DNA of 34,864 nt, from assembly GCA_028714615.1 (NCBI GenBank), contig JAQTMA010000015.1:1-34864 (forward strand). Reading direction: 5' to 3'. Below the pieces are notes generated by a model. That model did not search any database, was not told the origin of the DNA, and saw only the letters and a list, made by a program, of their open reading frames with translations. Each line of letters begins with the position of its first letter. Position 1 is the stretch's first letter. Of this stretch, positions 11,061 to 34,644 are shown piece after piece. The position numbers were made by a program, and so were the translations under genes. The DNA comes from Anaerolineaceae bacterium (lineage in GTDB: Bacteria; Chloroflexota; Anaerolineae; Anaerolineales; Anaerolineaceae).

Positions 11061-13646
11061 ATGAAAAAACAAAAAACTTCTTCAAACCAGCCCTCCCTCT
11101 TCCATCGCCCCGTCCCGCAGATGCCCGAGGGCTACTATTCATCCGGACCCAACCCCAACCTGCGCCAGTTCGTGGAAGAGCATGCCCATTACTACGACCC
11201 GACCACCGACATCTACGACTGCCCGCCCTTCGACCAGCCCATCACCACCACCAAGGCCACGGCCATCTACAACATGCACACCTACTGGTCGAAGAAGCCG
11301 CATGATGCCATCCAGCAGTACATCCGCCACTATACCCAACCAGGCGACCTGGTGCTGGACCCCTTCTGCGGCTCGGGCGGTACTGCCCTGGCAGCCCTGA
11401 TGGAGGGACGCGCTGCCGTTGCCATCGATCTCTCGCCGGCGGCGACCTTTATCACAAAGAATTATTGCACGCCGGTGGACGTCGAAGAACTCCAGCGGGC
11501 TTTTGAAGAGTTGAAAGCCAAGGTTAAGCCGGAGATGGACTGGCTTTACGAGACCCGTTGCGACCGCTGCGATGGGCGCGCGACGACGGCTTACACGGTT
11601 TATTCGTACGTTTTCGAATGCCCGAAGTGCGGCGAGCACACGCCTTTGTTCGACTGCCCAGAAGTACAGGTAGCTGGAAAAGATGGCAAACCCAAGACGA
11701 TTACAGTATGCCCGCAGTGCCAGGTGCGCAAGGCGGGCGACCCGGAAGACTACGAGATCAGCACGAGGACCAGCAAACGCTTTGACCCGATCCCTGTCCT
11801 GGTGAGCTATCTTTGTGAGGAGGGTTGCAAGCCCCAGCGGGGGGAGCGCCGGCCTAACGACAAAGACCCTAAGAAGCGCGAATACTTTGAGAAGTATGAC
11901 CTAGGCAAACTGCGGGAAATCGAAGAGAAGCCCATTCCTTACTGGTACCCGCCAAACCGCATGATGAACGTAGAGAGTGATACCGAGTCTTGGGGGGATA
12001 AATGGCGATCTGGATCAAGTAGTTTTAGAACGGTTGCACAGCTATTTACAAAGAGGAATTTATGGGCATTAGCACTAATTAAGGATAATAGCAAAACTCA
12101 ATTATTAAGTTCTATATTCGATTTTTCTTTGACTGGTTCTTCATTGCATTGTTCTACAATGGCCACTCATAAAGAAACAGGTGGTGGATTTATGATGGGG
12201 ACATATTATGTTCCTCAGATATCCAAGGAACGGAATGTATGGAATACCTTTTCAAGGAAACTTAAAGAGAATTATCAAGGTTTAGAGACTATTTCTCTTA
12301 AGTCTGTTAACCTTCTTATTTCATCTCAGTCCGCAACAGATTATTCCGAGATAAGCGATGATTCGATAGATTACGTTTTTACTGATCCCCCATACGCAGA
12401 TAAAATCCAATACGGAGAATTGAATTTTGTTTGGGAAGCTTTGCTAGATCTGAATACTAAATGGCAGACAAATGAAATAATTGTCAATCACACGAGGGGG
12501 AAGACAAATGCTATTTGGGCTGATCTACTACATGAAGCTATGTCAGAATGTTATCGTGTACTAAAACCTGGAAGATGGATATCCGTGTGCTACCATGATT
12601 CTAGTGAAGGCACATGGCAACTTTTACAAGACATTATGGCTGAGGTTGGATTTATCTCGGAACAAACAGAAACAACACTATTTATTGATGCAGGACAAAA
12701 ATCTTATAACCAGCTTAATGCTGATAAAGCAACCAAACGCGATCTTGTCATCAATTTCCGCAAGCCGCGGGTAGGCGAGACGGCTGGAAAGCTGATTCTG
12801 ATAGGTGACGAAGATGCAACCACTTTCTTAAATAAAGCACGCGCTATCTTAATCGAAGCATTGGATGCTCATCCGGGGTCGACAACTGACCGGCTGTATG
12901 ACGAGCTGGTATCGCGCATGGTGCGGCGTGGGGAATTCGAACGGCATAACTTCGACGAGCTGCTGCGCAGTGTGGCCGAACCTGTCATCGAGCCGGCGAT
13001 GAAAAACCTGTTCGAGAAAGAAGAGCCCAACCTGTGGGGCACGCATGAGACCGTGCGCTGGTATTTGATTGAATCTGCTGGCCTGGTGGATGAAACCGAA
13101 GCGAAAAAAGAGACCGCCGCCGCTGCGAAGTTAGAAGCGTTCATGCAAACCCAGCTCAAAGCCCATCCCTCCGAACCCGGGGTGCATTACTCCGACCTGT
13201 TCGAGCTGTACCTGCCCATCCAAGACAAACCCCGCCGGCTGCTGGCCGACTGGCTGCCCGAGTTCTTCTTCAAGACCCCGGAAGGTACCTGGCGTCCGCC
13301 TAAAGATGAAGAAGAGCGCCAGCAAAAACTCGGCCTGCGCCTGTCGGGCACCCTGCGCCAGATCAAGCATTTCGTCAATGCCCTGCAAGAAGGCGTGCCG
13401 CCCTCTGAGCGGGATAAACCTGCCAACGCTGCGACACTTGCGGATTGGATCTACCAGTGCCGGCGGGCGGGGTTGTACGAGCTGGGGAATGTGCTCTACG
13501 AGAAAGGCGGGCTGCAGTTTGACGGCTTGAGCGAGGAGTCACGGCTGCAGGTGGAGGAGGATTACCAGATTTGCGTGAAGCGTGGGAAGACGGCACCAGA
13601 GAAACTGCGCAAGTCCAACAGAGCCGTCCAGCTTCCCCTGGAATAA
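11061..13646 (+). CDS. pglX: BREX adenine-specific DNA methyltransferase (PglX type I, Zn-ribbon)
   Basis: This 861-aa protein belongs to the adenine methylases with a zinc ribbon (COG1743/DUF1156 style) used as PglXI in type 3 BREX. The SAM-binding motif DPFCGSGGTALAA begins at D100, preceded by the family text TYWSKKPHDAI. The zinc ribbon follows, with CDRC (167-170), CPKC (187-190) and CPQC (217-220). The catalytic motif DPPY begins at D442 (TDPPYADKIQYGELNFVWE). The C-terminal 250 aa are helical and probably contact partners. The enzyme should mark host DNA so that BREX ignores it. It starts 8 bases after the previous gene. The central third (bases about 11970-12740), including DPPY, is much more AT-rich than both ends, which suggests replacement of the target-recognition region. 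Function is confident, target site unknown. Confidence 0.85.
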   Translation: MKKQKTSSNQPSLFHRPVPQMPEGYYSSGPNPNLRQFVEEHAHYYDPTTDIYDCPPFDQPITTTKATAIYNMHTYWSKKPHDAIQQYIRHYTQPGDLVLDPFCGSGGTALAALMEGRAAVAIDLSPAATFITKNYCTPVDVEELQRAFEELKAKVKPEMDWLYETRCDRCDGRATTAYTVYSYVFECPKCGEHTPLFDCPEVQVAGKDGKPKTITVCPQCQVRKAGDPEDYEISTRTSKRFDPIPVLVSYLCEEGCKPQRGERRPNDKDPKKREYFEKYDLGKLREIEEKPIPYWYPPNRMMNVESDTESWGDKWRSGSSSFRTVAQLFTKRNLWALALIKDNSKTQLLSSIFDFSLTGSSLHCSTMATHKETGGGFMMGTYYVPQISKERNVWNTFSRKLKENYQGLETISLKSVNLLISSQSATDYSEISDDSIDYVFTDPPYADKIQYGELNFVWEALLDLNTKWQTNEIIVNHTRGKTNAIWADLLHEAMSECYRVLKPGRWISVCYHDSSEGTWQLLQDIMAEVGFISEQTETTLFIDAGQKSYNQLNADKATKRDLVINFRKPRVGETAGKLILIGDEDATTFLNKARAILIEALDAHPGSTTDRLYDELVSRMVRRGEFERHNFDELLRSVAEPVIEPAMKNLFEKEEPNLWGTHETVRWYLIESAGLVDETEAKKETAAAAKLEAFMQTQLKAHPSEPGVHYSDLFELYLPIQDKPRRLLADWLPEFFFKTPEGTWRPPKDEEERQQKLGLRLSGTLRQIKHFVNALQEGVPPSERDKPANAATLADWIYQCRRAGLYELGNVLYEKGGLQFDGLSEESRLQVEEDYQICVKRGKTAPEKLRKSNRAVQLPLE
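11970..12740 (+). other. AT-rich mosaic segment inside pglX
   Basis: The gene is GC-rich up to about 11970 and again from about 12740, but AT-rich between. By hand count, bases 11401-11460 hold 37 G or C of 60, while 12061-12120 hold 17 of 60. The frame is intact across both borders. Borders are approximate. Confidence 0.6.
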
Positions 13647-14795: not shown

Positions 14796-14828
14796 TCAGA
14801 TCAGCAGTAGACGGGTGAAAGGGGTCTG

Positions 14829-17800
14829 ATGAAAGTACCTGTCAGTGCATTTCTGAAATATGCTGGAACGAACCCCGACCGATGGGACCAACTCGTCGGT
14901 CGGGAGATCAACCACCCCACTTTTGGCAGTGGGCAGGTCAACTATGTGTTGGTGGAAGGCAGCGACATCTCAATTTACGTCGAATTTGCGAGCGCCTCAG
15001 AAAGCGGACGCCAGCGCTGCTTCGGGACGAAAGGCCTGGTCCCGGTTGAGAATATCGATCTGCCCACCCCGCTGGCCGAGAAAATCGTTGGGCCAGCCGT
15101 CCCTGGATTCCGGAGAATCCGGTATGGGCCAGTTCAAACCCCACTGAATCCGCCAGTTACTACCCCTCTTGAGGCTAGTGATACTTCACACCCAGAACCG
15201 AAGTTCTCTGCCGGAGAAGAAGTATGCTTGAAGTTTGACCGCACCCAGCGCGGCCGGATCATTAAAGCCCGCATCTTCAGCGCAGGGGAATGGAATTATG
15301 AAGTGTATTTTTCCGCGGACGACCAGCGCATCATCCGCGAGACGGAGATTGAGCTTTGGCAGCCTACCATCATCTGGGGCAGCCTTAACGAGCTGTTATG
15401 CGACCTGGCTCTGGTCAAGCTGCGCCAGCCCTTGGGAGATGCGCTCTATGCGCTCTACTCCTCGCGGACCCTGTTTGAGGTTTACCAGTTCAAACCAGCG
15501 CTCAAGTTCCTGGCGAACCCAGAGCAGCGCATGCTGATTGCTGATGAAGTTGGCTTGGGGAAAACGATCGAAGCTGGGATCATCTACCTCGAGTTGCAGG
15601 CGCGGCTGGAACTAGACCGGGTGCTTATCGTCTGCCCATCCAGCCTGCGTCAAAAGTGGCAAGACGAAATGAAAGCCCGTTTCGACGAGGAATTCGTCAT
15701 CCTCGACAGCCAGGGAGCCCGACGCTTCCTGGATCAATTACGGTTGTACGGGGGTGCAGCTCGGCTGCGTGGCATCATTTCACTTGAACTGATCCGCCGG
15801 AAAGATCTGGCAGAAGCCTTCAGTGATGTCCGGTTGGACCTGCTGATCATCGACGAGGCCCACCACTGCCGCAATACGGATACGCTGGCCAATGCAGTCG
15901 CCTCTGTCCTGGCTGAGAATGCGGATGCAGCCTTATTGTTGACGGCCACACCGCTTCAAATGGGCCAAGCAGACCTGTTTAACTTGTTGAACATTCTCTC
16001 CCCGGGTGAGTTCGACAATTTCGACGCTTTCATCGATCGCTTAGAACCGAACCAGTTTATCAACCGGGCTGCACAAATTCTCTCGACAGGAGATTCCACA
16101 GCTGCCGCGGTTGAGCTGCGCAAAGTTGAGACCACCAACCAGAAGCAGCGTTTCCTCGGAAGTCCATATTATCAGGAAGTTCTGCGAATCCTGGATCGAC
16201 CGTATCCCAGCCAACAAAAATTGATCACCGCTCAACGCCGGTTGATCGAGCTGAACACTTTATCGTCTGTTTTCACCCGCACCCGCAAGCGAGATATCCA
16301 GGAGAAGATCCCGATCCGCACTGCCCAGACCCTTCCGGTAACCTTCACGCCGGAGGAGAAACATTACTACAACCAGGTGATCGAAGAGGTACGAGAGGAG
16401 TTTTACCAGTCGCATCGGACTGGTATGGGCAGCGGGTTTGTCACCATCATGAAAGAGCGCCAGGTGGCTTCCTGTATTACCGCTTATATGCGCCGCCAGG
16501 ACAAAGTAGACCCTGAGACCTATGCAGAAGATCTGGCATTCGAGAGTGATTTTGTCAGCGAGGACGAGAAATTCGATGCGGATTCAGATGGAGAGGCATC
16601 TCCAATGGCGGCATTCTTTAACCGGTCGCGTCGAGTACATAAGCTTCAACCCCGGACCCGTAGTGGGTGGCACGATTCGAAATTCGATATATTCTGGACG
16701 GCGTTAAAAAAGGTTTTGGATGAGGACCCCCAAACCAAAGTGTTGGTGTTCTCCTTCTTCCGCGATACGATCGATTACCTGGAGGAAGAGCTTTCGAAAC
16801 GCAAGGTTGATGTTCGAGCAATTCATGGGGGTTATAAAGTCCTCGACCGCTATCAAATCATTGAACAATTCCGTGATAATCCGCAAATCAGAGTGCTGAT
16901 TTCGTCCGATGTGGGTTCCGAGGGTCTCGACTTTCAATTCTGCGATACGCTGTTTAACTATGATCTTCCCTGGAACCCGATGAAAGTGGAACAGCGCATC
17001 GGCCGCATCGACCGCTTCGGGCAGGTATCTGACCGGGTGCGGATTTTCAATCTAGTAATTGAAGACAGCATTGAATCACGCATCCTTTACCGCCTCTACG
17101 AACGCATCGAGCTATTCAAACGCTCCATTGGGGACATTGAAGCGATCTTGGGTGAACAGATTCGTGAGCTAACCCAGGTCGTTTTCAGCAAGCATTTATC
17201 CCCACAAGAAGAAATTAATCGGGCTGACCAGGCGGCCCATAACATCCTAATGCGGAAACAGGAGATGGATGAATTCGAGCAGAAGAAGCTGCAGTTCCTG
17301 GGTCAAGAGGCCATTTTCTCGACCACCGTCGAGAAAACGATCGAATCAGGCCGCTATATTTCGGATGTTGAGATTAAAGCACTAGTAGGAACTTACATTC
17401 AGGCAAAATTTCCCCTCTCCAGAGTGGAGTGGAATGGTCCGGGGGACGAGAGCTTCACGCTGTTTGCGAATGATGACCTGGTGACGGAAGTCAAGGCTTT
17501 TATCTTTCAAAAACGCAAGAACGACCCCTCTTCCCAGCAATTCCTCCAAAAACTTCGCCCTGGCCAGGAAATTCCAATGACTTTCCGCAGCGACCTGGCC
17601 TTCCAGCGTAAGTTGCTTGAGTTCATTACACCGCGCCATCCGTTAGCACAAGCAGCCCTGGAGTATTGGAAAGGAAAATCTGGTGGGATCAAGAGGGCAG
17701 CCTGTATCCGGTTGGATACGAAGACTGTGCCCTCAGGGAGATATTGTTTCTTTATTTTTACGTTCCGATCGGCTGGCATCGATAAAGATACGCGCATCAT

Positions 17801-18248
17801 CCCGATCGTTGTATCAGCAGAAAACGGTGACGTTTACAATGATTTCAGCAAACAGTTCCTTGGTCTGGCACAAACTTGCGCTTTGCCCTACGATGGCGGA
17901 ATTGCCTGTTTAGATCCATCTACGCTTGACCAAGCTGAAGAATCGGCTTTGTTGTACATGACCCGTGAGCGTGACGTCCTTTGTCAGGAGATGAAGGAAT
18001 CAAACACTGCGTTGCTGAATGCCCGCCGGAGTGCAGTCGAGCAATCCTACCAAGCAAAACGAAAACGCATCGACACCGTACGGCAAAAGGTGAACAACCA
18101 AAGCATCATCCGCATGTACGAGGGGCAGCTACGCAATATGGAAGCCCGCTACCTGGCTAAAATTCGTGATATTCAGAGCAAAACCGAGGTCCAAGTGAGC
18201 TTCTCGCTTGAGCTGCATGGGTTTGCGGAAGTCGTCCGCTGCTTGTGA
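14829..18248 (+). CDS. brxHII: SNF2/RapA-like superfamily 2 helicase (BrxHII position)
   Basis: The 1139-aa protein has an N-terminal beta-rich region (about 1-190), then a SNF2-type motor. Motif I is DEVGLGKTIEAG (from D239), motif II is DEAHH (from D342), motif III is LLLTATPLQM, and the second RecA domain carries SSDVGSEGLDFQF and motif VI QRIGRIDRFGQ (from Q722). A coiled C-terminal part (about 1040-1120) ends the protein. This architecture matches the helicases called BrxHII, found in type 3 and type 5 BREX, and also RapA/DrmD-like helicases. It probably translocates on DNA while the BREX complex samples it. The ATG follows GAAAGGGG by four bases. The family is certain; the BrxHII name rests on context. 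Confidence 0.85.
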   Translation: MKVPVSAFLKYAGTNPDRWDQLVGREINHPTFGSGQVNYVLVEGSDISIYVEFASASESGRQRCFGTKGLVPVENIDLPTPLAEKIVGPAVPGFRRIRYGPVQTPLNPPVTTPLEASDTSHPEPKFSAGEEVCLKFDRTQRGRIIKARIFSAGEWNYEVYFSADDQRIIRETEIELWQPTIIWGSLNELLCDLALVKLRQPLGDALYALYSSRTLFEVYQFKPALKFLANPEQRMLIADEVGLGKTIEAGIIYLELQARLELDRVLIVCPSSLRQKWQDEMKARFDEEFVILDSQGARRFLDQLRLYGGAARLRGIISLELIRRKDLAEAFSDVRLDLLIIDEAHHCRNTDTLANAVASVLAENADAALLLTATPLQMGQADLFNLLNILSPGEFDNFDAFIDRLEPNQFINRAAQILSTGDSTAAAVELRKVETTNQKQRFLGSPYYQEVLRILDRPYPSQQKLITAQRRLIELNTLSSVFTRTRKRDIQEKIPIRTAQTLPVTFTPEEKHYYNQVIEEVREEFYQSHRTGMGSGFVTIMKERQVASCITAYMRRQDKVDPETYAEDLAFESDFVSEDEKFDADSDGEASPMAAFFNRSRRVHKLQPRTRSGWHDSKFDIFWTALKKVLDEDPQTKVLVFSFFRDTIDYLEEELSKRKVDVRAIHGGYKVLDRYQIIEQFRDNPQIRVLISSDVGSEGLDFQFCDTLFNYDLPWNPMKVEQRIGRIDRFGQVSDRVRIFNLVIEDSIESRILYRLYERIELFKRSIGDIEAILGEQIRELTQVVFSKHLSPQEEINRADQAAHNILMRKQEMDEFEQKKLQFLGQEAIFSTTVEKTIESGRYISDVEIKALVGTYIQAKFPLSRVEWNGPGDESFTLFANDDLVTEVKAFIFQKRKNDPSSQQFLQKLRPGQEIPMTFRSDLAFQRKLLEFITPRHPLAQAALEYWKGKSGGIKRAACIRLDTKTVPSGRYCFFIFTFRSAGIDKDTRIIPIVVSAENGDVYNDFSKQFLGLAQTCALPYDGGIACLDPSTLDQAEESALLYMTRERDVLCQEMKESNTALLNARRSAVEQSYQAKRKRIDTVRQKVNNQSIIRMYEGQLRNMEARYLAKIRDIQSKTEVQVSFSLELHGFAEVVRCL

Positions 18249-18387
18249 TTTGATATTCGGTTTGATGTGGTGCAATGTTGGTTGAAGGTGGCTTCGACGT
18301 AGTCGAGTGGAAAATGAGCCCGATTCATTGATCCGGATGAGTAGCCGGTGGTGTGAAATCAATCGTGTCGCAGAAAGCGAGAAAATC

Positions 18388-21300
18388 ATGAAGGAAAATT
18401 CTGACCAGAAGGAAAATGAGATAAGCATCGGCGGTTACACGATGTCCATAACTGATCAGCTGGCACAGAAAATGATCAGCGCCGCTATAAAAGAACTTAA
18501 AAGCCCAACTCCTGACGCAGATCAAATCGCCAGATGGAAGACAGTCATCGAAAAACGCATCCGGATACCCAATATTAATGATATCGATAAGGCGAACCCT
18601 GGGCAGATTCGCCGCGCACTGCAGGGCATTTGGTGTAATTATGAGGATCTAGCAAGTGTCCTTTTCGAAATCTGGATGACCTATAACCAGCCCTTGATAA
18701 GTGAATGCACCGAATCGTTGAATGGCCATAACCTTTATGAGATCAGACAATTTGTTCGGGATATGGAAAAAGCTAAGCAAGATGAGCCTAATAAAGAGCC
18801 GGTAATTTTGGGAGAAATGGTTCGTACAATCTTCAGAAAAATATCTGGCCCATACAGTGAAGAAGAGATCAGGCTGGGAATACTGGCATCAATCAATATT
18901 AATGTCGAATACAAAAAAATCGTTGAGGAAGAGGAAGAAGAGCTGAAACAGAGTGGAGTTTCTTCTCGACAAAGCCGACAAGCACCGAGCCAATGGGAAG
19001 CGATCCTCGATGAGCTTCGGCAAATACCCGCTGACGATCCGGCTTGGAATTCGATGGATAAATTTATCCAAGCCGCCACTGAGATCGCTTCTCAAAAACT
19101 TTCAGAAAGAATAACCCATGAAGAGAAGCAAAAACTAAGTGACGCGTTGAATCGATATGGAGAGGATATCAAGCGTAGGGCAGCCTATCTGGAGATCAGC
19201 GGGGTAGAAGAGTGGACTGTAGATCGGGTACCTACTGACCAAATAGAGGATGCCTGCACCTCGATCCAGTCTCTCGACGAATTATTACAAGAATTTTCCC
19301 GGCTAGATAGCCTGCCATATCCTTCGGTTCGTTCCGAACGTTTGAAATTCGAGGATGATCGTCGGAAAGCTGAGGAGAGGTTGATTGAAGGATATCGGGC
19401 AGCGCAACGTTTTTTTCAAATAAGGGGCGAAATGGTAGAAACGAAGTTGCCCAGCACCCCCGAATCCTTAGTAGATACTCCCGAAAATTTGGCGGTAGAT
19501 GACGAGGGAACTATATACCCAGAGACTGGTCAAGAGAGTGCGCCAAGTAATATCTCTGACCTGCCAGAAACCACATCCGAGCGGTGCATTGAAGGGGCCA
19601 AAGAGCCTGTCGAGCTGGTTACCCTGCAAACCGAAGTATTTGTCCACCCAGTTGCCATTGAGCCGCCGGTAGAAATAACAGGCGGTCTGTCCGGGTCGGT
19701 GGATCAAACTCGAGACAGCTCACTAGCAACAACGTTGGAAGGTCAAGACTCGCGACATGTTGAAGACCAAGGAGCGGGTGAGGTTCAAGTCATTCTCCCA
19801 CAAATACCAGCTCCAGAGATCAAACCCGCGACGTTATTAAGCCACTCGAATACGAACCTAGCAAGCTGCATCGAAGCACGAGATTTGAGCGTAGCATACT
19901 GGCTGGCCTGGGCGATGGAGCAGCAGGGAGAAGAAAGCTTGATCCCTTCTTGGCTGATTGCAGCGGTTCAATCCTGCATATGGTCGATTTCACTTTGGCC
20001 AGAACAATCCCCCGACCTGCATGAAAGCCTATGCAACCTGGTCTCACCGGAACAAAAACCCAGCCAACCAGAAAACGACGCCACTGCCTGGCTTCGCTTT
20101 ATCTGCGGCATGTATTTTACGCTGGTAATACCACGCCAGGGTTGGGCAAAATGGGTACAGGTGCCGGGCAGCCATAATATCCCACAACTGAACCAGCTCA
20201 CTGAATTAGTCTTGGATTATTACACAAAGGGGCTGCGTTTAGATCCTGAGTTGGTCCAGATGATCATCAATAAAGAGGAAACGGATCAGCTCGTGGATGA
20301 CCTTGCTAGGCAGGCAAAACAATGGCTCAGCCAGGCTCCCAGCCGGACGACACGCAACCATCGTGCCAAAAATCTATGGCAGGAACTCCTTCGCGTTGGC
20401 CAAGGTGAACTCTATTTATTAATTGAGCCGGTTGCGTCCAATCGACGCTCGGCTGCCAAACAGGTACAGACCCAGTTGGCAAACTGGACAGATCGGCCCT
20501 GGTTGGAAAGGATGGTCCAGAGACTGGACCAGGAGCTTCGTCTTCGAAATGAATTTTCCATCATTGGCGAGGCTAAGCAACAAATCATCAACTGGATTCT
20601 CGACGTTTGTACGATCGCTGATCGTTGGAGCAGTATCATCATCCATCAAGATGAACTTATCAATGGCGATAGCTGGTCTTATAGCCAAACCAGGGAATTG
20701 TGTTATGCATCCCGCCAGATCTTAAGAGGGGTTAACCCCGAGCTGATTGAATCCCAGAAAAATGCTTTCCAGCCTGGAATCCATGCTGTGCTTGGCATTG
20801 TCGCCTGGGTTTTTGAAGGATTAGAAGCTATCTTGGGGGAAAATACCAGAGCAGCATCGGCTACCTGGCTGAAGCCCAATTTCCCGGATGTGCCCTTCGA
20901 TAGATCCTCCCATACATTCATACGTCGCTGTCTTGCGCAGCCCCTGATTTTTCAACCCGAATTAAACCTCGATAATAACGGTGTGCCTGGAGATGAACAG
21001 GCTTCGCAGGTACTATCCATCTTAGAGAAGGGACCGAACCACAGCGCAGTCGAAGCTATTCAAGGCTGGTTGGATCGACGAGATTATCGATTCATTGATC
21101 AGCTTTTGGAAGACATTCCCGATCGGGATGTATGGGTAGAGCGCTGTCGCGAGGCATTTCATTCAGATTTGCAGTGGATAGAGAATAATTCCATCTACGA
21201 AACTGATGTAGATGTCGAGCAGTCAAAAATTGAAAACCTGATCTCCGACCAAGAATACATCGAATATAAGAACCGAATTGAATCCGTCCAGAAGAATTGG

Positions 21301-24300
21301 CGGCAAGCTGATTGGGAAACGAACCGACGGATCTCTTTTGATCTATTAGTGAAGCGGCTACAAGGAATCCGTGACCAAATCGGGAAAAGACGCCAGGCAA
21401 AAATCGATCATTTGAAGGAACGCTGGAAGAATATCCGTTATGATGTATTGCCATTACTTGGCGATGACCACGATCTATCCGAAAAAATCGCTAATGCGAT
21501 CGAAGGCAGCTTAGCAAGCAATGATCCTCGATCCGTGAATGCATACATCGAACAACTTCAAGATGCAATCAGCAAAGGGAAAAAGCCGGCGCAATCGTTA
21601 TTCGAAGTGAAAACTGCTGAAGAAATCGACATCCTAAAGCAATTCCACAATCTTCTTCCAGCATATGTCGATTTGTTTGAACCTTTCGGGCGGAAAATGA
21701 CTCTGCAAGGCATTGCCGATATGATCAAGCGAGATGAACCCCTACCTGGGATGCCGCATGTCAGTCCTTCTTCCAGCCGTCGGATTGAAGCACATCGAGC
21801 AATTGAAGCCTGGCAGCTGTTAAAGCGATCAGGCCCCGAATATGACCCCCGTCAGAATGAGAACATAAAGACCATTCTCTCCTATCTGGGTTTCATCCTG
21901 CGGACTGAGAGCCCTGTAACTGTTGGCCGGTCAGGAAATATCATGCCGAACTTCCTGCATTGGCACGTCAAGATGAATGCTCCTGACAGTGCGCCGGTTG
22001 CTATGTTTGGGTCAGAGAGGAATGGGGAGTATGAAGTTATCGGCGTTTGGCAACGGCCTGGCATCGAAGCCATTACTTCTCAAGTCAATGCGCTCATGCA
22101 GCAAACAGCTAACCAGCCTGCCATCTTGTTTTACTTCCACTACCTTACATCTACACGGCGTGATCAACTGCTTTCAGCAGCGCATCGGGAAAGTTTACCA
22201 ATGCTGGTGATCGATGAACCTTTGATCCTTTACCTGGCGCGCATAAATGATACCCGTTTGAAACCGATGTTCTATTGCACCCTACCATACGCGTTAGTGG
22301 ACCCATATTATCCCTTCGTCCGCGGGAAGGTGCCATCAGAAGCTTTTAAGGGACGTGGCGATTATGTCCAACAGTTGATGGACCCTGCCGGACCGGTGAT
22401 TGTTTACGGTGGAAGGCAGTTGGGTAAATCTGCGCTCCTTCATCAAGTCGAGCTCTCATTCCACCAGCCCGACGATAACCGTTTTGCAATTTATCGTGAC
22501 ATCAAGTCGGTTGGCGATCCGGCATCAGGGATTAACTATCAACGGGATCTCTGCGATCAACTGGCTAAAGAGTTAACTGGGACTAGTCCCAAACTAATCG
22601 AGGACCGGCGCTCCTATGATATTGATCGATTAGTCTCGCAGCTTCAAGAGAACATAATCTCAAAAAATAGAAGGATCATCCTGTTATTGGATGAGGCTGA
22701 TCACTTCCTGGATGCCGACGCGGAGAAGAACTTCTACGTTGTCCACAAACTGAAAGATTTGATGGACAAAACAAATCGCCGCTTCAAAATTGTCCTGGCC
22801 GGTTTGCACAACGTGCAGCGTTTCCAGCGTATGAGCAACCAACCTTTGGCCCATTTTGGCAAAATTGAGATCGGACCGCTGGATTTCAAACCTGCGCGAG
22901 AACTGTTAGTCCAACCATTACATGCACTGGGCTATTACTTCGGGAATGACCCAGATAAAGAAGACAGCTCTTTACCCCTCCATATCCTTTCTTATACGAA
23001 TTACCATCCTGGCTTGATCCAGTTATTCGGTAGGCATCTAATTGAGCACCTCAAGAATAAGTATCTCCTACCTGTTCACCCACCTTTGTCTATCACGCGG
23101 GCCGATGTAGAAGCCGTTTATCGTACAAAAGAGGTACGCGAAGCCTTGTGTGATCGATTCAATTTGACACTTTCATGTGATTCGCGGTATGAAGCGATCA
23201 CCCTGGCATTAATCCTTGAACAATGGGACGAGCAGAACGGCTTCGATCGCCAATTTTCATCCAGAGAGCTTCATAAGATGGCCCAATATTGGTGGCCCAA
23301 AGCATTTGAGGAAGAAGCGATCGCTCAAGACAGGTTCACTGGCCTTTTAGACGAAATGTGCAGCCTTGGAGTGCTCTCAACTAGCTCGGACGAGAATTCT
23401 TATCGCTTGCATAGTCCCAATTTGGTTCACCTGATGGGGACCCAAGAGCAGTTGTTTTACCGGATAGATTCTCTGGCGAAAACACCTCCGCCGGAGAAAC
23501 AGGCACTTGATAGCTCCCGCGCCCGCCTCGAAGATTCAAGGGAGTTTAGTCCACTCACTTTTGCTCAGGAACGTGTCCTGAATCATCCTCATTCTGGCGT
23601 TGCGCTCATCTTTGGATCGAATGCAACGGGGTTGGCAAACCTTGCTCCTGCCCTTCAACGTTTACTACCATCTAGCCCAAAGGGTTTTCAGGAGATCCAC
23701 ATCGTAGCCCACGGGTCGGAGGCTATCCAACAGCAGCTCAGGCAGTTAGTGCGAGATGAACAAGAAGCTAATTTTCTGATTGCTCTTCGCGAACTCTCAG
23801 GTGAACCTGATCAGGTGATAGATGAAGTAATAGGGGCGATGCAGTATTGCCGTCAGGTTCAAAAGCGGGTTTTGCGTGTTTGTTTTACTATTGATCCGCA
23901 AACTGCCTGGCAGTGGCAACAAATTCCGACCGTGAATCGGGATGAAATTGAACAACAAGCCATTACAACGCTATCCTTGTCCCGCTGGGATCGGATCGGG
24001 GTAAAACAACGCCTGGAAATGGAAAGCTGGGATGGTGGAGAAATATCACCGACTGACCGGCTCATCACCAAAGTACTAGAGGTTACTGGAGGGTGGCCTT
24101 GCCTTGTTGATGAATATGTCTCGCGATGTAAGAAAAATGACCCCAATCTCGTTGTCGACGAGATTAAGAATGATATGTCGAAACCAGGCAATGTACTTTC
24201 TAGTATGTTGATAAACCAGCTCGGCATTTACGATTATTTACCCCGCTCGATAATCAATGCCCTTCGTGAAAATCGTGTTCGCAAACTGATCCATGCAGGC

Positions 24301-24456
24301 AACCCCCCGGTAGAGACGCTGGAAGCAGAACTCAAAACCCAAAAAGCTGAGAACATTGCGGAAGCTATCGATTACCTTAAGCGGCTCGGGACTATCATTA
24401 CTGATCCACATTTCGATCTTGAGCCCGTTATTGCACGGAACTGGTATGATGCCTGA
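18388..24456 (+). CDS. Giant multidomain AAA/STAND-like ATPase, uncharacterised
   Basis: From the ATG at 18388 the protein has 2022 aa. The start is uncertain: the frame is open from a GTG at 18307, ATG 18442 is also possible, and no good ribosome site marks any of them. Residues 1-350 are helical and charged; about 355-490 is an acidic, Pro/Ser/Thr-rich linker; a long helical section follows to about 1200. The active ATPase has Walker A GGRQLGKSALL (from G1341) and Walker B IILLLDEADHF (D1435-E1436), in the style of Orc1-like AAA proteins. A winged-helix region lies near 1600-1690. A second, degenerate ATPase follows: GSNATGLAN near 1743 stands where Walker A should be, yet TGGWPCLVDEY is kept. 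The stop overlaps the next gene. It may be a sensor or scaffold for that protein. No described BREX component matches. Confidence 0.7.
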   Translation: MKENSDQKENEISIGGYTMSITDQLAQKMISAAIKELKSPTPDADQIARWKTVIEKRIRIPNINDIDKANPGQIRRALQGIWCNYEDLASVLFEIWMTYNQPLISECTESLNGHNLYEIRQFVRDMEKAKQDEPNKEPVILGEMVRTIFRKISGPYSEEEIRLGILASININVEYKKIVEEEEEELKQSGVSSRQSRQAPSQWEAILDELRQIPADDPAWNSMDKFIQAATEIASQKLSERITHEEKQKLSDALNRYGEDIKRRAAYLEISGVEEWTVDRVPTDQIEDACTSIQSLDELLQEFSRLDSLPYPSVRSERLKFEDDRRKAEERLIEGYRAAQRFFQIRGEMVETKLPSTPESLVDTPENLAVDDEGTIYPETGQESAPSNISDLPETTSERCIEGAKEPVELVTLQTEVFVHPVAIEPPVEITGGLSGSVDQTRDSSLATTLEGQDSRHVEDQGAGEVQVILPQIPAPEIKPATLLSHSNTNLASCIEARDLSVAYWLAWAMEQQGEESLIPSWLIAAVQSCIWSISLWPEQSPDLHESLCNLVSPEQKPSQPENDATAWLRFICGMYFTLVIPRQGWAKWVQVPGSHNIPQLNQLTELVLDYYTKGLRLDPELVQMIINKEETDQLVDDLARQAKQWLSQAPSRTTRNHRAKNLWQELLRVGQGELYLLIEPVASNRRSAAKQVQTQLANWTDRPWLERMVQRLDQELRLRNEFSIIGEAKQQIINWILDVCTIADRWSSIIIHQDELINGDSWSYSQTRELCYASRQILRGVNPELIESQKNAFQPGIHAVLGIVAWVFEGLEAILGENTRAASATWLKPNFPDVPFDRSSHTFIRRCLAQPLIFQPELNLDNNGVPGDEQASQVLSILEKGPNHSAVEAIQGWLDRRDYRFIDQLLEDIPDRDVWVERCREAFHSDLQWIENNSIYETDVDVEQSKIENLISDQEYIEYKNRIESVQKNWRQADWETNRRISFDLLVKRLQGIRDQIGKRRQAKIDHLKERWKNIRYDVLPLLGDDHDLSEKIANAIEGSLASNDPRSVNAYIEQLQDAISKGKKPAQSLFEVKTAEEIDILKQFHNLLPAYVDLFEPFGRKMTLQGIADMIKRDEPLPGMPHVSPSSSRRIEAHRAIEAWQLLKRSGPEYDPRQNENIKTILSYLGFILRTESPVTVGRSGNIMPNFLHWHVKMNAPDSAPVAMFGSERNGEYEVIGVWQRPGIEAITSQVNALMQQTANQPAILFYFHYLTSTRRDQLLSAAHRESLPMLVIDEPLILYLARINDTRLKPMFYCTLPYALVDPYYPFVRGKVPSEAFKGRGDYVQQLMDPAGPVIVYGGRQLGKSALLHQVELSFHQPDDNRFAIYRDIKSVGDPASGINYQRDLCDQLAKELTGTSPKLIEDRRSYDIDRLVSQLQENIISKNRRIILLLDEADHFLDADAEKNFYVVHKLKDLMDKTNRRFKIVLAGLHNVQRFQRMSNQPLAHFGKIEIGPLDFKPARELLVQPLHALGYYFGNDPDKEDSSLPLHILSYTNYHPGLIQLFGRHLIEHLKNKYLLPVHPPLSITRADVEAVYRTKEVREALCDRFNLTLSCDSRYEAITLALILEQWDEQNGFDRQFSSRELHKMAQYWWPKAFEEEAIAQDRFTGLLDEMCSLGVLSTSSDENSYRLHSPNLVHLMGTQEQLFYRIDSLAKTPPPEKQALDSSRARLEDSREFSPLTFAQERVLNHPHSGVALIFGSNATGLANLAPALQRLLPSSPKGFQEIHIVAHGSEAIQQQLRQLVRDEQEANFLIALRELSGEPDQVIDEVIGAMQYCRQVQKRVLRVCFTIDPQTAWQWQQIPTVNRDEIEQQAITTLSLSRWDRIGVKQRLEMESWDGGEISPTDRLITKVLEVTGGWPCLVDEYVSRCKKNDPNLVVDEIKNDMSKPGNVLSSMLINQLGIYDYLPRSIINALRENRVRKLIHAGNPPVETLEAELKTQKAENIAEAIDYLKRLGTIITDPHFDLEPVIARNWYDA

Positions 24457-25666
24457 TCTCTCAGCTGCGTTATGGACGCTTCCAGGTCCAAACAGGTTCA
24501 TTCAAAAGGCTGGGCAGCAAATGGAGGATGGATTTAATCTCATCATTTTGCTGCCCAAGCTTATTGACAGATCGCATTTTCGCCAATCGCTGCTCAATTA
24601 TCTGGAAAACGATAAGCATCTAAACATCCAGGTGATTGACTTGACATACTCAAATGGATGTTCTCCATTCGAGTTTTTAAAGGCTGTGTTTGTGAGTCTA
24701 CAGAAATACAGAATGTTAGAAATGGCGGTCAATGACCCTTCTCTACCGAGCGTTATACTGCTCGACAATCTTCAAGCGTGCCCGGTGAAGAATCGCGCTG
24801 AATGGCTAATTGCTATTGCCCGCTGGTCAGATGCAAGCAGCCGCTGTGCTGGGGAACACTGCTTTGTTCTAATTACCGACTATCAAGCTGTCGAAGGGGT
24901 TAAGCTACCACTAGCTGATGTAAAGTTGGCATACGATCATTGTTCTGGAATCCCTACAGCTCTAGATGTCAAAATGCTTTGCCGCATAAAGGCCCAGCGG
25001 ATGGATGCAGAGAATCAATGGCGCGAAAACCTATTGGCATCCTTGGCCGGTAATGATATAGATCTGGCTGCCGAATTATGGGACACGATCCTATGCGAGG
25101 AAAATGAGATAAATCAGGTATTGCTTGATTATGCAAACGGGATGGGGTGGGATCCTTTGAAGGAAAAAGGCCGGCTAAACCAATGGCATCCAAAGCCACC
25201 TGGAATTAATATTTCTTCGATAACAGACCAAGAATCTCTTTCCCTCCTAAATGATGGAATTACGGTTTATACACCCGAATATGGTGAAGAAATTCATTCG
25301 GCATTCTTAGCCTTACTTAGTCGACGGAACGACATCCATCACCGGATCTGGAGAGCTCAAGCCAATATTTTTCTTCCCCTGATTGATGATGTCCGGCGAC
25401 GTATTTGCGATTACATTAATCAAAATGGAGTAGAAATTAAAGGGTATCATTTTGAAACCCCCGTCGAATTAAAAGACTTAAAGAATTATATCGATGAACT
25501 CGATAAACAATCGTATGTTAGACGTCAATGGGAGTATGGGATTAAGATAGCCTTGTCATCGCGTAACTCGCTTGCCCACTACGAAACGATCACTTATCGT
25601 TCTTTTAGTGATTTCTGGCGATTCTACATAGGTGTGCATAATGTTCTATTCCAACTCTCAAACTGA
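24446..25666 (+). CDS. 406-aa protein: degenerate NTPase-like part plus C-terminal HEPN-like domain
   Basis: The tandem ATGs at 24446 and 24449 overlap the end of the giant ATPase gene by 8-11 bases, so the two should be translated together. The first 200 aa look like a P-loop fold without a P-loop: NLIILLPK stands where Walker A would be, and PSVILLDNLQA resembles Walker B. The last 130 aa are helical and contain SSRNSLAHYE, with R373-N374 and H378. This R-N-x3-H text is the signature of HEPN RNase-type domains, similar to Swt1- and ApeA-type versions. If so, this is the toxic effector and the giant ATPase its controller; that is inference. It is moderately AT-rich, ends 15 bases before PglZ, and is unlike any standard BREX protein. 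Confidence 0.6.
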   Translation: MMPDLSAALWTLPGPNRFIQKAGQQMEDGFNLIILLPKLIDRSHFRQSLLNYLENDKHLNIQVIDLTYSNGCSPFEFLKAVFVSLQKYRMLEMAVNDPSLPSVILLDNLQACPVKNRAEWLIAIARWSDASSRCAGEHCFVLITDYQAVEGVKLPLADVKLAYDHCSGIPTALDVKMLCRIKAQRMDAENQWRENLLASLAGNDIDLAAELWDTILCEENEINQVLLDYANGMGWDPLKEKGRLNQWHPKPPGINISSITDQESLSLLNDGITVYTPEYGEEIHSAFLALLSRRNDIHHRIWRAQANIFLPLIDDVRRRICDYINQNGVEIKGYHFETPVELKDLKNYIDELDKQSYVRRQWEYGIKIALSSRNSLAHYETITYRSFSDFWRFYIGVHNVLFQLSN

Positions 25667-25680
25667 GTAAGGTGAAACCT

Positions 25681-28467
25681 ATGCTCGAATCCTGGATCCT
25701 CGCCAAGCTCGAACCTTATCATGCCTCGCGCACCATCATCCTGCGCGATCCGCAGCGTATGGTCCAACCCGGCGCCCGGGCGGTAGACGGCTGGGCGCAG
25801 GAGCACGGCTTTACCGTGCTATTCTGCACTGGCAACTTGGCCCTGCGTGAGATGGTCGAGCCGCTGCGCGGCGATCCCGATGCCAGGGTGCTGCTGGTGG
25901 ACCGCAGCCGTGGGGATGGCCTACTCTTCTATCCCGACCTGGAACCCACTGCCCCGCAACACCCGGTCGAGATCTCGCTTCGCGACTACTTGGTGGAGAA
26001 AACCGGTGACCCCGCCTGGCCTGGGCTGGTCAACGATCGCAACCTGTCCCGCCTGATCCTGGGCAACCTGGATGGGACGATGGCGGCACACGGCAACCTG
26101 CGCGGCATCTCACCCACCCGCTTCAGCGACAGCGATCTGTACAAGATCATCCTGGGAGCGGTATTGAGCATCAACCCGTTCGCAAAGCTCAGCCCAAGCC
26201 AGGTGCGCCGGCTGTGCCTGGAGCAGCACGCCGCGCTGGACGAGCTCAACCGCGTCCTGCCGCCAGAGATCAGCGAGACATTGCGCAAAATGGTCGAGAG
26301 CGCCCCGCGCCCCTTCTGCTGGCTGCTGGACCGCGACCCGGAGCTAATCATCCGCGCCTTCGCGCTCTCTGCGCTGCTGCACCAGCACGGCCTGGACCAC
26401 GCGCTATTGTTGCCCAACTTTGACCCAGCCCTGCATGAGTATAAAGTTATCGAGGCGGCTACCCTGGATGCCTCCCTGCAAGACCAGCTGGAGAGCGACC
26501 CCGACCGCACCCTGGCGGACGTCCAGAAGGTGGAAGACTTCCTCCGCGAAGACCCGCAGCGCTTGCGCCTGCTGCTGCACGACCAGCTCAATATCGGCGA
26601 TGGGCAGGCGGCTCAGGAAGTGCTCAAGCAGGAGCGCCTGTCGGGCCTGCTGCGCAGCATGGCGTTGGCCTCGCTGCTGGTCGACCTGGTACTGAACCAG
26701 GACTGGCGGAAACACCGCAAGGTGCTGGCGCAGATTGAAAAACAGGAGCAGGGCGCCAAATTCCCGGTGATGCGCCGGCCGACCGAGCAGTGGCAACAGT
26801 TGTTGGCTGCTTACCGCCGCGGCATCGCCCTGTATGAACTGACGGAAAAGCTCAGGGAACAATATCTGGATCTGAAGGTGGCGCAAACGGAGAACCTTGA
26901 ATTTGCCCGCTTCGACCAGTTGTGGAACCATGAACGGCTCAACCGCCTGGATTATTTCGTCTCCGATCTGGAGCGTATGCTGCGTGTGGGGGATATCCTG
27001 CCGGTTTCGCATGCTGCCCTGTGGCCGGAATTTGAGCAAACCTGGAACGCCGCCCGCCAGAAATTCAAGGAAACGAGTGAGGTCATCGATCAGGTCTTCC
27101 GGGTGATCAACCGCCAGTTCCAGGACCTCTACCTCAAGAATTACACCAAGTGGATCCAGCAGCCCGATTCCCCGGTCGTGTTCACCCACCAGTTCCTGCC
27201 GCGCCTGCTCCAGGCGCACTGGGATCCGAAGTCGGGCCAAAAAGCTGTGGTGCTGGTGTTTGATGGACTGCGCACCGACGCCTGGGACGAGCTGGTCCGC
27301 CCGGTGCTGGAAGAGCGCTACGAGCTGCTCGAAAGCCGCCCTGGCAGCGCCCTGATCCCGACCGAAACGGAGTTGAGCCGCAAGGCGATTGCCGCCGGCT
27401 GCTTGCCAGCCGACTTCCCCATTAAGAGCAAGCGTGAATTGGACCTGCTCTCCGCCTGGCTCAAGAGCCACATGGGCATCGCCCCTCAGTTTGAGGTGGT
27501 GCGCGACGTTGATACGGTCGCTTCGGGGATGACCGTGCAGTACCGCTCGAAGCAGCTCGACTACATTGTCTTCAACTTTACCGACGATAACCTGCACCAC
27601 AACCCGCAGGAGCTGGCCCTCATCTATAAAACGACCGTGAATGAAATTATCCGCCAGGACGTGCGCAGCGTGCTGCGCGAGCTGCCCAGCGACGCGCTCG
27701 TCTTCGTCACCAGCGACCACGGCTTCACCCCGATGGCTTCCGACCCGATCGACGTGGGAGAAGCGGTCGTGGGGGATGCAAACCTGGTCAAGTACCCCTG
27801 CGTGCGGGCTGCCCATAACTTCAGCGGAGCGGACGCCAAAAAGGTGGTTTCGTTCGACATCCGCGCCCTCAAGATCCCCATCCCGGATGTTGCGCACGGC
27901 ATGGATGCGGTGACATGCGTACTGTTTGCCCGCCCGGGGTACGTGTTCCGCAGGCAGGCCTGTCGTACCAGCCCCGACCGCTACGGTCACGGCGGCTTGA
28001 GCCTGGCTGAATGCATGGTCCCGATGGTGGTGATGGGACCCAAGAAGCAGGAACAGGGGGTTCTCTCTCTGGAAGAAGTTCACCAGACTGGGACCATGAT
28101 CGAGGGTGAGCCGCTGGAGATGGAGATCCGGGTCAAATCGAGCCAGTGGATAGTGAACGGTTTCCCCATCACCATCTCTTTCAGCCAGAATCATATCCCA
28201 ACCCGCAAAGAGTTCTATAACGGGGTGGAAAAGACCTACCGGGTCGGGTGGAAACCGGTGATGCCGGAAATTACGGAAGAGCACCGCAGCCGGGGAACTG
28301 TCGAATTTCCGGTGACGGTCATGCTGAGCTACCGGCTGAAGGAGCAGTCCTACCGGGTGAGCAAGACGGTGGACATGCGCGTCCGGCTGGATTCGACGCG
28401 CCTACGCAGGAGAATCGATTCTAAGCTGGATTTGATGATGGGAAAGCTGCCCAAAGAGACGAAATAA
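25681..28467 (+). CDS. pglZ: BREX alkaline-phosphatase-superfamily protein PglZ
   Basis: This 928-aa protein carries the PglZ domain in its second half. The metal-site text VLVFDGLRTDAW (D528) is followed by NFTDDNLHH, VFVTSDHGFTP (D679-H680) and RYGHGGLSLAECMVPMVV, in the order seen in alkaline-phosphatase-superfamily enzymes. The first half is helical and probably binds BrxB-like partners. I chose the ATG at 25681 because AAGGTG ends six bases before it; a GTG at 25672 lies within that ribosome site. PglZ is the hallmark protein of BREX and is essential in tested systems, though its substrate is not settled. Codon use is GC-rich, like brxC, and contrasts with the genes on both sides. Confidence 0.92.
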   Translation: MLESWILAKLEPYHASRTIILRDPQRMVQPGARAVDGWAQEHGFTVLFCTGNLALREMVEPLRGDPDARVLLVDRSRGDGLLFYPDLEPTAPQHPVEISLRDYLVEKTGDPAWPGLVNDRNLSRLILGNLDGTMAAHGNLRGISPTRFSDSDLYKIILGAVLSINPFAKLSPSQVRRLCLEQHAALDELNRVLPPEISETLRKMVESAPRPFCWLLDRDPELIIRAFALSALLHQHGLDHALLLPNFDPALHEYKVIEAATLDASLQDQLESDPDRTLADVQKVEDFLREDPQRLRLLLHDQLNIGDGQAAQEVLKQERLSGLLRSMALASLLVDLVLNQDWRKHRKVLAQIEKQEQGAKFPVMRRPTEQWQQLLAAYRRGIALYELTEKLREQYLDLKVAQTENLEFARFDQLWNHERLNRLDYFVSDLERMLRVGDILPVSHAALWPEFEQTWNAARQKFKETSEVIDQVFRVINRQFQDLYLKNYTKWIQQPDSPVVFTHQFLPRLLQAHWDPKSGQKAVVLVFDGLRTDAWDELVRPVLEERYELLESRPGSALIPTETELSRKAIAAGCLPADFPIKSKRELDLLSAWLKSHMGIAPQFEVVRDVDTVASGMTVQYRSKQLDYIVFNFTDDNLHHNPQELALIYKTTVNEIIRQDVRSVLRELPSDALVFVTSDHGFTPMASDPIDVGEAVVGDANLVKYPCVRAAHNFSGADAKKVVSFDIRALKIPIPDVAHGMDAVTCVLFARPGYVFRRQACRTSPDRYGHGGLSLAECMVPMVVMGPKKQEQGVLSLEEVHQTGTMIEGEPLEMEIRVKSSQWIVNGFPITISFSQNHIPTRKEFYNGVEKTYRVGWKPVMPEITEEHRSRGTVEFPVTVMLSYRLKEQSYRVSKTVDMRVRLDSTRLRRRIDSKLDLMMGKLPKETK

Positions 28468-30872: not shown

Positions 30873-30948
30873 TGCACGAGATCAGTATAGCCCAGCAATG
30901 TTTTGTTTCTTTGAAGTGTATCTGCTGAAGGGATTTGGAGGAGATTAT

Positions 30949-32604: not shown

Positions 32605-34644
32605 GTGAACCTTCATTTCAAAGAGACCTTTGCCGGCAAAGTCGTCAACAAGAAATTGACCTTCAACACCGGGATGGACGAGTTCCCTCGCTATGTGCTC
32701 GAGTACCTGATCGACAACTACTGCTCCGAAGAGACCTTCGAAGAGGATTTCGAGCGGGTTAAACGGCGCCTGCGCGAGAATTTCGTGCACGGGGCGGAAG
32801 CCGAGCGTATCCGCTCCTATATCCGCGAGCACCGCGAGCATTCCATCATCGCCAGCCTGGAAGTGCGCCTGGTGGAAACCGAGGACAAGTATTGGGGCAC
32901 GATCGGTGCGATCAACGAGAGTTTTGTCAACATTCCCGAGGTGATGGTGAAGCAGTACCCCATGCTGCTGGCGGGCGGCATGTGGGGGACGATCTCCCTG
33001 ACCTATGATGAGAGCGAGGTCCATAATAAGAAGATCCGCCCCTTCAAAGTCATCGATTTCACCCCGTTCCAGATCTCGATGATCGACCTGCCAGAATTCC
33101 TCCAAAAACGCAAAGAGTTTACGGACGGGGAGTGGCTTGATATTCTGGTAAATTCCTTTGGGCTCAATCCGGGTCGCATGTCCCGGCGCGAGAAGCTAAT
33201 CTACATCAGCCGGGCCGTGCCGCTGGTGGAATCCAACCACAACATGATCGAGCTGGGTCCGCGAGAAACCGGCAAGACCTACCTCTTCCGCAATATGTCT
33301 TATTATGCTCATGTGCTCAGTGGGGGCAAGGCGACCCCCGCGGGATTGTTCATTAACTTGAATACCGGCACCGTCGGCCTGGTCGGCACCCGCGAGGCGG
33401 TGGTGTTCGACGAGATCGCCAACACCGATTTTACCGACCCTAAGGCGATGGTCAGCATGATGCAGGGCTTTATGCAGGACGGCAAGTTCAGCCGCGGCAA
33501 GAAGGAGATCCTGGCGTTCGGCTCGATCGTCCTGGTGGGAAATTTGGACGTGCAAGGCAGGCTGCCGCACGAAAAGTATTACACCCTGTTCGACCCGCTC
33601 CCGAGTTTCTTGCAAGTGGAGGCGCTCATCGACCGCTTGCACTACTATTTGCCCGGATGGGAAGTGCCCAAGATCAGCCCCGAATCGGCCAGCCAGGACT
33701 ACGGCTTTATCACCGACTATTTCTGCGAGATCATGCACGAGCTGCGCCGCATCGACGTCAGCGCACCGCTCAAGAGCCGCTTTGAGCTGTTCGACGCTGC
33801 CGGAGCCGGTCCGGGCTTGACCTCCCGTGATGTGCGCGCTATCTACAAAACCCTCTCTGGGCTGCTCAAGCTGATGTATCCCCACGGCCAGGTGACCGAC
33901 GAACAGTTGGAGGAACTGCTGCTTCTGGCGATTGAAGGACGCCAGCGCGTGCGTAACCAGCTTCACCTGATGGCCCCGGGGGAGTATGCCCCTACCCAGA
34001 TCGCTGCCCGCTTCGTTCAGGCCGGCAATGTCGTTTGTCCAAAACTGCTGGAAGGGGACCGCAAAGTCCACATCGAGATGCCCACCCAACCCGCAGTAGG
34101 GGAGGTAGTCGGCCTGGCTGTTGCCGGGGAGCAGGGGGTCATCCTGCGTTTCGAGATGCAGGTGAGCAAAGGCCACGGCCGCATCGTCCCGTTGGGGTCG
34201 ATCCAGAAGGTGATGCGCGAATCGATTGAAGCCGCCACGCAGTACATCAAGGTCTATGCGGCCGATCTGGGCGTTCCACCCGATTGGAAAGAGAATTTTG
34301 ACGTGGCGGTCCTGGCGACACAAATGGGCATCCCCAAAGAAGGCCCTTCAGCCGGCATCACCATCGTCACGGGCATCGTCTCAGCATTGAAGAACGTTCC
34401 GGTGCGCCATGACATTGCTATGACGGGCGAGATCACCATTATGGGTAAGGTGCTGGGCATCGGCGGGGTGCAGCCAAAACTGATGGCAGCCATTGACGCC
34501 GGGGTGAAAACCGTAATTATACCGGCCGAGAATGAGCGGGATGTTCAGAATCTCCCCGATTACATTCAAAACAAGATTGAAGTGAAATACGTCAGCGATA
34601 TTCGTGAAGTGCTGGCTATTGCCCTTTTCCTCCCCAATAGTTAA
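32605..34644 (+). CDS. brxL: BREX protein BrxL (AAA ATPase with Lon-like protease domain)
   Basis: The 679-aa length equals that of known BrxL proteins. It starts at a GTG behind AGAGG. The N-terminal domain (about 1-190) opens with [17 protein letters not shown], typical of BrxL. The AAA part has Walker A GPRETGKT (218-225) and Walker B VVFDEIAN (D269-E270). The C-terminal third is a Lon-type domain with the catalytic serine in KEGPSAGIT (S582) and lysine in [12 protein letters not shown] (K625), so the Ser-Lys pair is intact. BrxL forms DNA-binding rings in type 1 systems and is needed for defence there. It is GC-rich like brxC and pglZ, and closes the cluster. BrxL belongs to types 1 and 4, so it is unexpected beside a type 3-like methylase and helicase. 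Confidence 0.92.

Follow-up and report, generated by a model that had tools for sequence, protein, structure and literature searches.

A giant STAND NTPase and its HEPN-type partner form a predicted portable defence module in a type-3-like BREX operon

The 34,864-nucleotide contig JAQTMA010000015.1 of an Anaerolineaceae bacterium (GenBank assembly GCA_028714615.1), referred to here as the window, carries a bacteriophage exclusion (BREX) operon in which two overlapping genes lie directly before pglZ. The first encodes a giant STAND NTPase of 2022 residues and the second a 406-residue partner that appears to combine an inactive ATPase with a HEPN-type tail. We propose, with a probability of roughly 0.68, that the two constitute a portable two-component module of the toxin type, predicted to act in defence as an ATP-triggered ribonuclease (RNase), and that a type-3-like BREX operon carries them as cargo. 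The support comes from the gene pair itself, the domains of its products, the conservation of an R-x4-H motif, the gene overlap, the spread across phyla and the exchange of the partner for a protein of another RNase class.

The giant gene (18388..24456, forward strand) starts with ATG, and its frame is also open from a GTG at 18307 (18307-24456, 2049 aa) that encloses this ATG. The partner gene (24446..25666, forward strand) lies in a frame (24356-25666) with ATG starts at both 24446 and 24449; the overlap of the giant's stop with the partner's start (24446..24456, forward strand) is 11 bases, or 8 with the second ATG, just as a first-pass annotation of this DNA had read it. Searching 5.8 billion proteins gave 68 homologs of the giant and 26 of the partner besides the window's own entries, with 10 contig sizes common to the two lists, and we take both to be real genes. 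A chance overlap of two open reading frames was rejected since homologs were found for each.

The overlap is conserved across the relatives. In the genome loci of the best 80 of 543 relatives of the giant, a full-length HEPN-type partner (an open reading frame of at least 350 aa matched by the partner profile) is present in 49, a partial one in 4 and none in 27; the 49 include L049 and also L001, where a 75-aa open reading frame in a different frame encodes roughly the first 60 residues of the partner. The distance between the genes is measurable in 50 of the 53 partner-bearing loci, and 27 partners start at -4, giving an ATGA-type overlap, while 46 start no more than 40 bases from the giant's stop; the start codon closest to that stop was taken each time, a choice that favours short distances. 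L049 is an exception, with its partner 3.7 kb from the giant.

The partner was modelled with a predicted local distance difference test (pLDDT) score of 91, and its secondary structure was assigned with DSSP. Residues 1-293 (24446..25324, forward strand) are modelled as a degenerate ORC/Cdc6/STAND ATPase fold that lacks the Walker A lysine, and residues 294-404 (25325..25657, forward strand) as four helices (294-326, 342-351, 357-377 and 384-404). The motif R373-N-S-L-A-H378 (25562..25579, forward strand) ends the third of these. In HEPN domains the motif is described as R-x4-6-H with a polar residue after the arginine, at the end of the third helix (PMC3710099), and the partner tail shows both this motif and this arrangement of four helices, the latter read from the topology of the model and not from a fold match. 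The outcome that would have spoken against the first-pass annotation, a model lacking the four-helix fold, was not seen.

Both motif residues are under strong conservation. R373 and H378 are two of only nine invariant columns in the alignment behind the partner profile (27/27; the window's protein and 26 other homologous proteins, which were not chosen for the motif), and N374 is kept in at least 90% of the same sequences, so that the R-N-x3-H motif noted earlier is borne out. R-x4-H is likewise present in all 49 full-length partners at the 80 loci, followed after the arginine by a polar residue in 48 of them (L017 has a second arginine). For a test against HEPN profiles, the 49 tails that fit the motif pattern (48 from full-length partners and one from the partial partner of L022, L017 being outside the set) were reduced by ten (L009, L025, L058, L007, L018, L023, L048, L053, L063 and L070) to 39 loci, which with the window make 40 tails. 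HEPN_Swt1 matches 20 of these, with a best value of 8.6e-05, and other HEPN families match a few; the tail of L072 scores 18.5 bits against a HEPN cut-off of 27.5. Control fragments were drawn for 40 positions, three of which (L016, L019 and L060) gave none, and among the remaining 37 no family matches more than three members and no HEPN family occurs among the 25 listed of 70. The tail thus looks like a Swt1-type HEPN domain, well supported at the level of the family and not by the window's tail taken alone.

The structure model of the giant covers residues 823-2022 (pLDDT 86), and a fold search with this part, whose results are taken up by ATPase domains, finds NLR, CED-4 and ORC chains that match its AAA+ and winged-helix parts. 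The core (aa 1304-1685; 22297..23442, forward strand) is accordingly modelled as an NLR/CED-4/ORC-like unit, an AAA+/NB-ARC-like STAND domain followed by a winged helix, with Walker A GGRQLGKS at aa 1341-1348 (22408..22431, forward strand) and Walker B LLLDE at aa 1432-1436 (22681..22695, forward strand). In an alignment of the window's fragment with 27 of the 69 listed giant proteins, Walker A GGRQ[LM]GK[ST] and Walker B DE.D are kept in 28/28, so both the P-loop and Walker B are intact in an AAA+ domain of NB-ARC/ORC type with a winged helix, as expected of a STAND protein. R1478, kept in at least 98% of the 51 sequences aligned along the giant, is a candidate arginine finger. Residues 1718-2022 (23539..24453, forward strand) read in the model as a second, degenerate ATPase, whose P-loop lysine is absent both from the window protein and from the family consensus. 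One intact ATPase, a winged-helix region and a second, eroded ATPase are just what the first reading of the sequence had proposed for the giant.

The remainder of the giant is less readily assigned. The N-terminal region (aa 1-1170; 18388..21897, forward strand), alpha-helical in the modelled aa 823-1150, is least conserved at aa 1-180 and 361-480 and is a candidate sensor. It is followed by an alpha/beta segment (aa 1177-1283; 21916..22236, forward strand) that may be an inactive restriction endonuclease-like domain, its strand order in the model resembling PD-(D/E)XK enzymes but lacking the conserved D..ExK; this comes from the topology of the model and not from a fold search. Profile collections have little to say of either protein: the giant matches AAA_22 (1.5e-10), NCBIfam gives it only a weak ORC1 match (0.0019) and gives the partner none, PADLOC has no family for either, and sequence searches of solved structures with the partner profile found no credible relative.

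The most likely scenario is that the giant acts as an ATP-driven STAND switch whose AAA+/winged-helix core would serve as an NLR-like motor, with the divergent N-terminal region as the likely sensor of an infection cue. The partner would bind the giant through its inactive STAND domain, which we infer because the two share a fold class and their genes overlap. ATP-dependent assembly would then bring HEPN domains together and switch on RNA cleavage, which could halt the infected cell's growth or its production of phage. A large controller with a separate HEPN-type partner built on a degenerate ATPase fold, as first suggested, is supported by the models, the motif conservation and the controlled HEPN_Swt1 matches. 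The organization differs from that of Avs-type and other STAND defence proteins, since here the effector domain is part of a separate polypeptide that also contains an inactive ATPase domain.

Of the 27 loci with no HEPN-type partner, 10 have a giant fused to sigma-70 regions, 6 encode a beta-CASP protein, 6 have fewer than 700 bases of contig after the giant and 5 show none of these features. In the six beta-CASP loci (L051, L067, L077, L078, L079 and L080), all actinobacterial, a metallo-beta-lactamase/beta-CASP protein encoded after the giant replaces the HEPN partner; it was recognized by Pfam in L077 and by similarity to L077 in the other five. The Edaphobacter locus L038 differs in that the giant is preceded by a less closely related metallo-beta-lactamase and followed by a HEPN partner. 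The ten giants with N-terminal sigma-70 regions are all cyanobacterial. Pfam identifies regions 1.2 to 4 in L030 (5990-13186) and L033 (5897-13252), and similarity identifies the remainder, namely L027, L037, L039, L040, L042, L045, L046 and L064; a giant of this kind is also encoded in L113 (4434-11303). Where complete these proteins are ~2300-2450 aa, those of L039, L040, L045 and L046 being shorter or cut. Eleven of 24 plasmid records were examined, and Brasilonema plasmid pBOCT2 likewise carries a sigma-70-fused giant. An SNF2 helicase gene adjoins the sigma-fused giant in 8 of the 10 genome loci, and in L033 the helicase has a PLD nuclease domain.

The sigma-70 fusions bring up the alternative that the HEPN domain is structural or RNA-binding and that the pair is a regulator instead of a toxin. 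This is in keeping with the ten of 80 giants that carry sigma-70 regions, with which no HEPN partner was found, and with the loss of the motif from some HEPN domains (PMC3710099). Against it, the arginine and histidine of the motif have survived while most of the sequence diverged, the pattern that an active site would show, and the alternative beta-CASP partner is also of the RNase class; we consider a purely regulatory role quite improbable.

A further variant occurs on plasmids. pPIWI-RE is fused to a giant STAND core in P0095, which was scanned directly, and similar fusions in Azospirillum, Bradyrhizobium and Microvirga are suggested by the annotation 'RNaseH domain-containing protein' and by protein length. 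At the plasmid loci of this type (L103, L109 and L110, on alphaproteobacterial plasmids) the gene after the giant encodes an inactive STAND domain, an Rx4H tail and a C-terminal AAA_33 kinase-like domain. An Agrobacterium partner next to a giant of ordinary length has the same layout, with an AAA_33 score of 20.7 bits, below the cut-off of 27. HEPN cleavage leaves 5'-hydroxyl ends, on which AAA_33-type kinases act. The kinase-like fusion therefore fits an RNA substrate, since the ends left by HEPN cleavage are those on which such kinases act; the cleavage also yields 2',3'-cyclic phosphate ends (PMC3710099). The idea that pPIWI-RE substitutes for the HEPN domain was rejected, because the Rx4H partner is kept in all three such plasmid loci examined. 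The available account of pPIWI-RE contexts describes them without this ATPase (PMC3702460), and the open-access literature examined yielded no account of the variants with sigma-70, pPIWI-RE or beta-CASP.

Taken together, these variants raise the prospect, which we judge evenly balanced, that one STAND core is an exchangeable hub and that every output attached to it works on RNA or on transcription. These outputs would be two RNases supplied in trans (HEPN and beta-CASP), a HEPN-kinase partner accompanying a fused Argonaute-like pPIWI-RE module, and a sigma-70 factor joined covalently to the core. If so, a single ATPase core would be common to suicide RNases, a sigma factor and an Argonaute-like module, and the same switch could be tested with different readouts. 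Through the sigma-70 form, a switch of the immune type could reprogramme transcription without an intermediary, and for an NLR-like core this would be an unusual way of coupling sensing to gene expression.

Several observations weigh against an RNase-type defence module. The window's own 115-aa tail alone matches no HEPN family, the tail profile finds no credible match among solved structures, and fold searches with the whole partner are filled by its ATPase part, so that the HEPN domain is not isolated by fold. The 40 tails were selected partly by the motif, which helps the figure of 20 matches to HEPN_Swt1. Five giants (L044, L047, L054, L062 and L068) have neither partner type, and a HEPN partner is absent from all eight sigma-70-fused loci whose downstream sequence extends 1 kb or more; with these, RNA cleavage is not the sole output of the core. 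In favour of such a module are neighbours of defence type, namely BREX (the window and L021), SIR2-HerA (L021), a DSR2-like gene (L010) and a type IIG enzyme (L004), although these were counted without a random-locus control; the mainly non-defence settings that would have contradicted the first reading were not seen, although the comparison carries the same limit. The defence role and the RNase activity, which in HEPN domains is metal-independent, are predictions from sequences and models.

The pair sits between a DrmD/BrxH-like SNF2 helicase gene and pglZ in a same-strand run with BrxC-like, PglXI-like and BrxL genes. The helicase gene (14829..18248, forward strand; PADLOC best match DrmD, with BrxHI and BrxHII models also matching) lies directly upstream of the giant, and the partner frame ends 5 bases before that of pglZ (25672..28467, forward strand; BREX_PglZ_3 8.9e-21, 73.8 bits, below the cut-off of 250), which confirms the insertion directly before pglZ noted earlier. 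This placement invites the reading that the pair works as an integral component of this BREX variant, in which the inactive ORC/STAND domain would be a BrxB/BrxF-like scaffold and the HEPN domain a built-in backup effector acting together with PglZ and the helicase. BrxB and BrxF are themselves STAND/ORC folds that are inactive, BREX-related operons repeatedly contain HEPN effectors (PMC12839542), and an SNF2 helicase adjoins the giant or the partner in 13 of the 80 loci. The pair is absent, however, from the compared stretches of four related BREX loci and so does not recur across BREX operons as a core component would. In L097 and L098 genes unk387, unk180, BrxC and PglZ are consecutive, with nothing of the pair between BrxC and PglZ (the L098 contig ends after PglZ), and in L090 and L091 the methyltransferase, PglZ and BrxL genes have one small gene between them and the pair is missing from the stretch examined, as it is in L097. 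Moreover, of the window's BrxC, PglZ and BrxL only BrxL has a match at the 80 loci (in L021), a comparison that would miss other BREX types, as at L047, where two BrxC/BrxD-type ATPases (14453-17415) follow a giant with no recognizable HEPN partner. An integral role in BREX is thus unlikely, and the earlier view that the pair is no core BREX component gains support.

Contig sizes provide a further context for the cargo reading. Four of 119 listed PglZ homologs (120 of 282 PglZ proteins were listed, including the window's) are on contigs with sizes matching those of pair homologs (75384, 41803, 16691 and 27429), against a chance mean of 0.21 (P 1.5e-4, jittered sizes). This coincidence also suits an integral role in BREX, and as indirect evidence it suggests that BREX relatives with the pair probably exist too. 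As some BREX relatives lack the pair and others probably carry it, the loci compared point to a recurrent but optional cargo of BREX, and if so an RNA-level second line would have been added inside the operon.

The pair had been proposed as an undescribed module, and this is not supported: it probably belongs to a class that had already been predicted in 2021. The nSTAND2 group is a predicted mobile two-gene operon in which both products are STAND NTPases, one of which is inactive and has GT4 or HEPN as its commonest fusion partner (Kaur et al. 2021, eLife, PMC8195603, Fig. 6C). Here too an active and an eroded STAND protein are encoded in a two-gene operon, the gene order fits and the inactive protein is fused to HEPN. 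In contrast to nSTAND2, GT4 fusions were not met: no partner is GT4-fused in the 53 loci with a partner match, and an inactive-STAND profile run against a sample of 687 genomes in four phyla gave six matches in frames of 391-472 aa, none of a size to hold GT4. The arginine finger, conserved in both nSTAND2 proteins, is a candidate in the giant (R1478) and was not recognized in the partner, where no arginine of aa 1-293 is invariant or nearly so. Because structure and gene order fit but GT4 was not met and a partner finger was not recognized, we regard membership of nSTAND2 as fairly probable. The available portion of the nSTAND2 description does not include the giant size or the sigma-70, pPIWI-RE, beta-CASP and kinase variants (PMC8195603), and that of a catalogue of HEPN effectors in BREX and of the inactive STAND proteins BrxB and BrxF does not include this pair (PMC12839542). 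What is new is that the pair lies in a BREX operon and that outputs acting on RNA or transcription are swapped on a single core, and the plasmid records from Salinibacter, Brasilonema and Azospirillum offer defined material on which the 2021 prediction can be tested.

Type-1 BREX-related (Hma) systems contain DUF499-HEPN proteins, in which an Abi2/Swt1-type HEPN domain is joined to an ORC/Cdc6-class AAA+ ATPase (PMC12839542, PMC3710099). These have a methyltransferase and an SNF2 helicase beside them, and L001 (3286-17186) is similar, with a DUF1156 methyltransferase, giant, HEPN partner and an SNF2 helicase with a weak PLD match in that order. In DUF499-HEPN proteins HEPN is N-terminal on DUF499, whereas here it is C-terminal on an inactive ATPase and the active giant is separate; DUF499 matches neither giant nor partner at E 0.1. 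We note that L001 looks as if the pair had replaced the DUF499 ATPase of a BREX-related system.

The homologs point to a portable pair, sporadic across many bacterial groups and phyla. In the class of the Thermoflexales genome G001, the giant is present in 6 of 396 genomes (G001-G004 being known beforehand) and PglZ in 3 of 396, and the partner is in 2 of 400 genomes of the phylum. The inactive-STAND domain occurs in 1/194, 1/198, 3/146 and 1/149 genomes of the four phyla, the seed genome included each time. A scan of viral contigs gave one relative (L102), with a HEPN-type partner.

Among the other genes of the operon, all on the forward strand where assigned to BREX, are those for a BrxC-like (DUF6079) ATPase (4154..8452; weak matches), a PglXI-like adenine methyltransferase (11061..13646; 6.2e-112) and BrxL (32605..34644). 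The window from 2405 to 34644 therefore mixes type-3-like BREX parts (a PglXI methyltransferase, an SNF2 helicase and a PglZ nearest to the type-3 NCBIfam model) with BrxL, which is reported absent from type 3 BREX (PMC12839542). An ADP-ribosylglycohydrolase gene (30898-31749; 7e-39) lies between pglZ and brxL, flanked by genes for proteins of 263 and 279 aa without assignment, and an FxLYD-domain protein (8567-9982; 2.5e-24) is encoded between the BrxC-like and methyltransferase genes.

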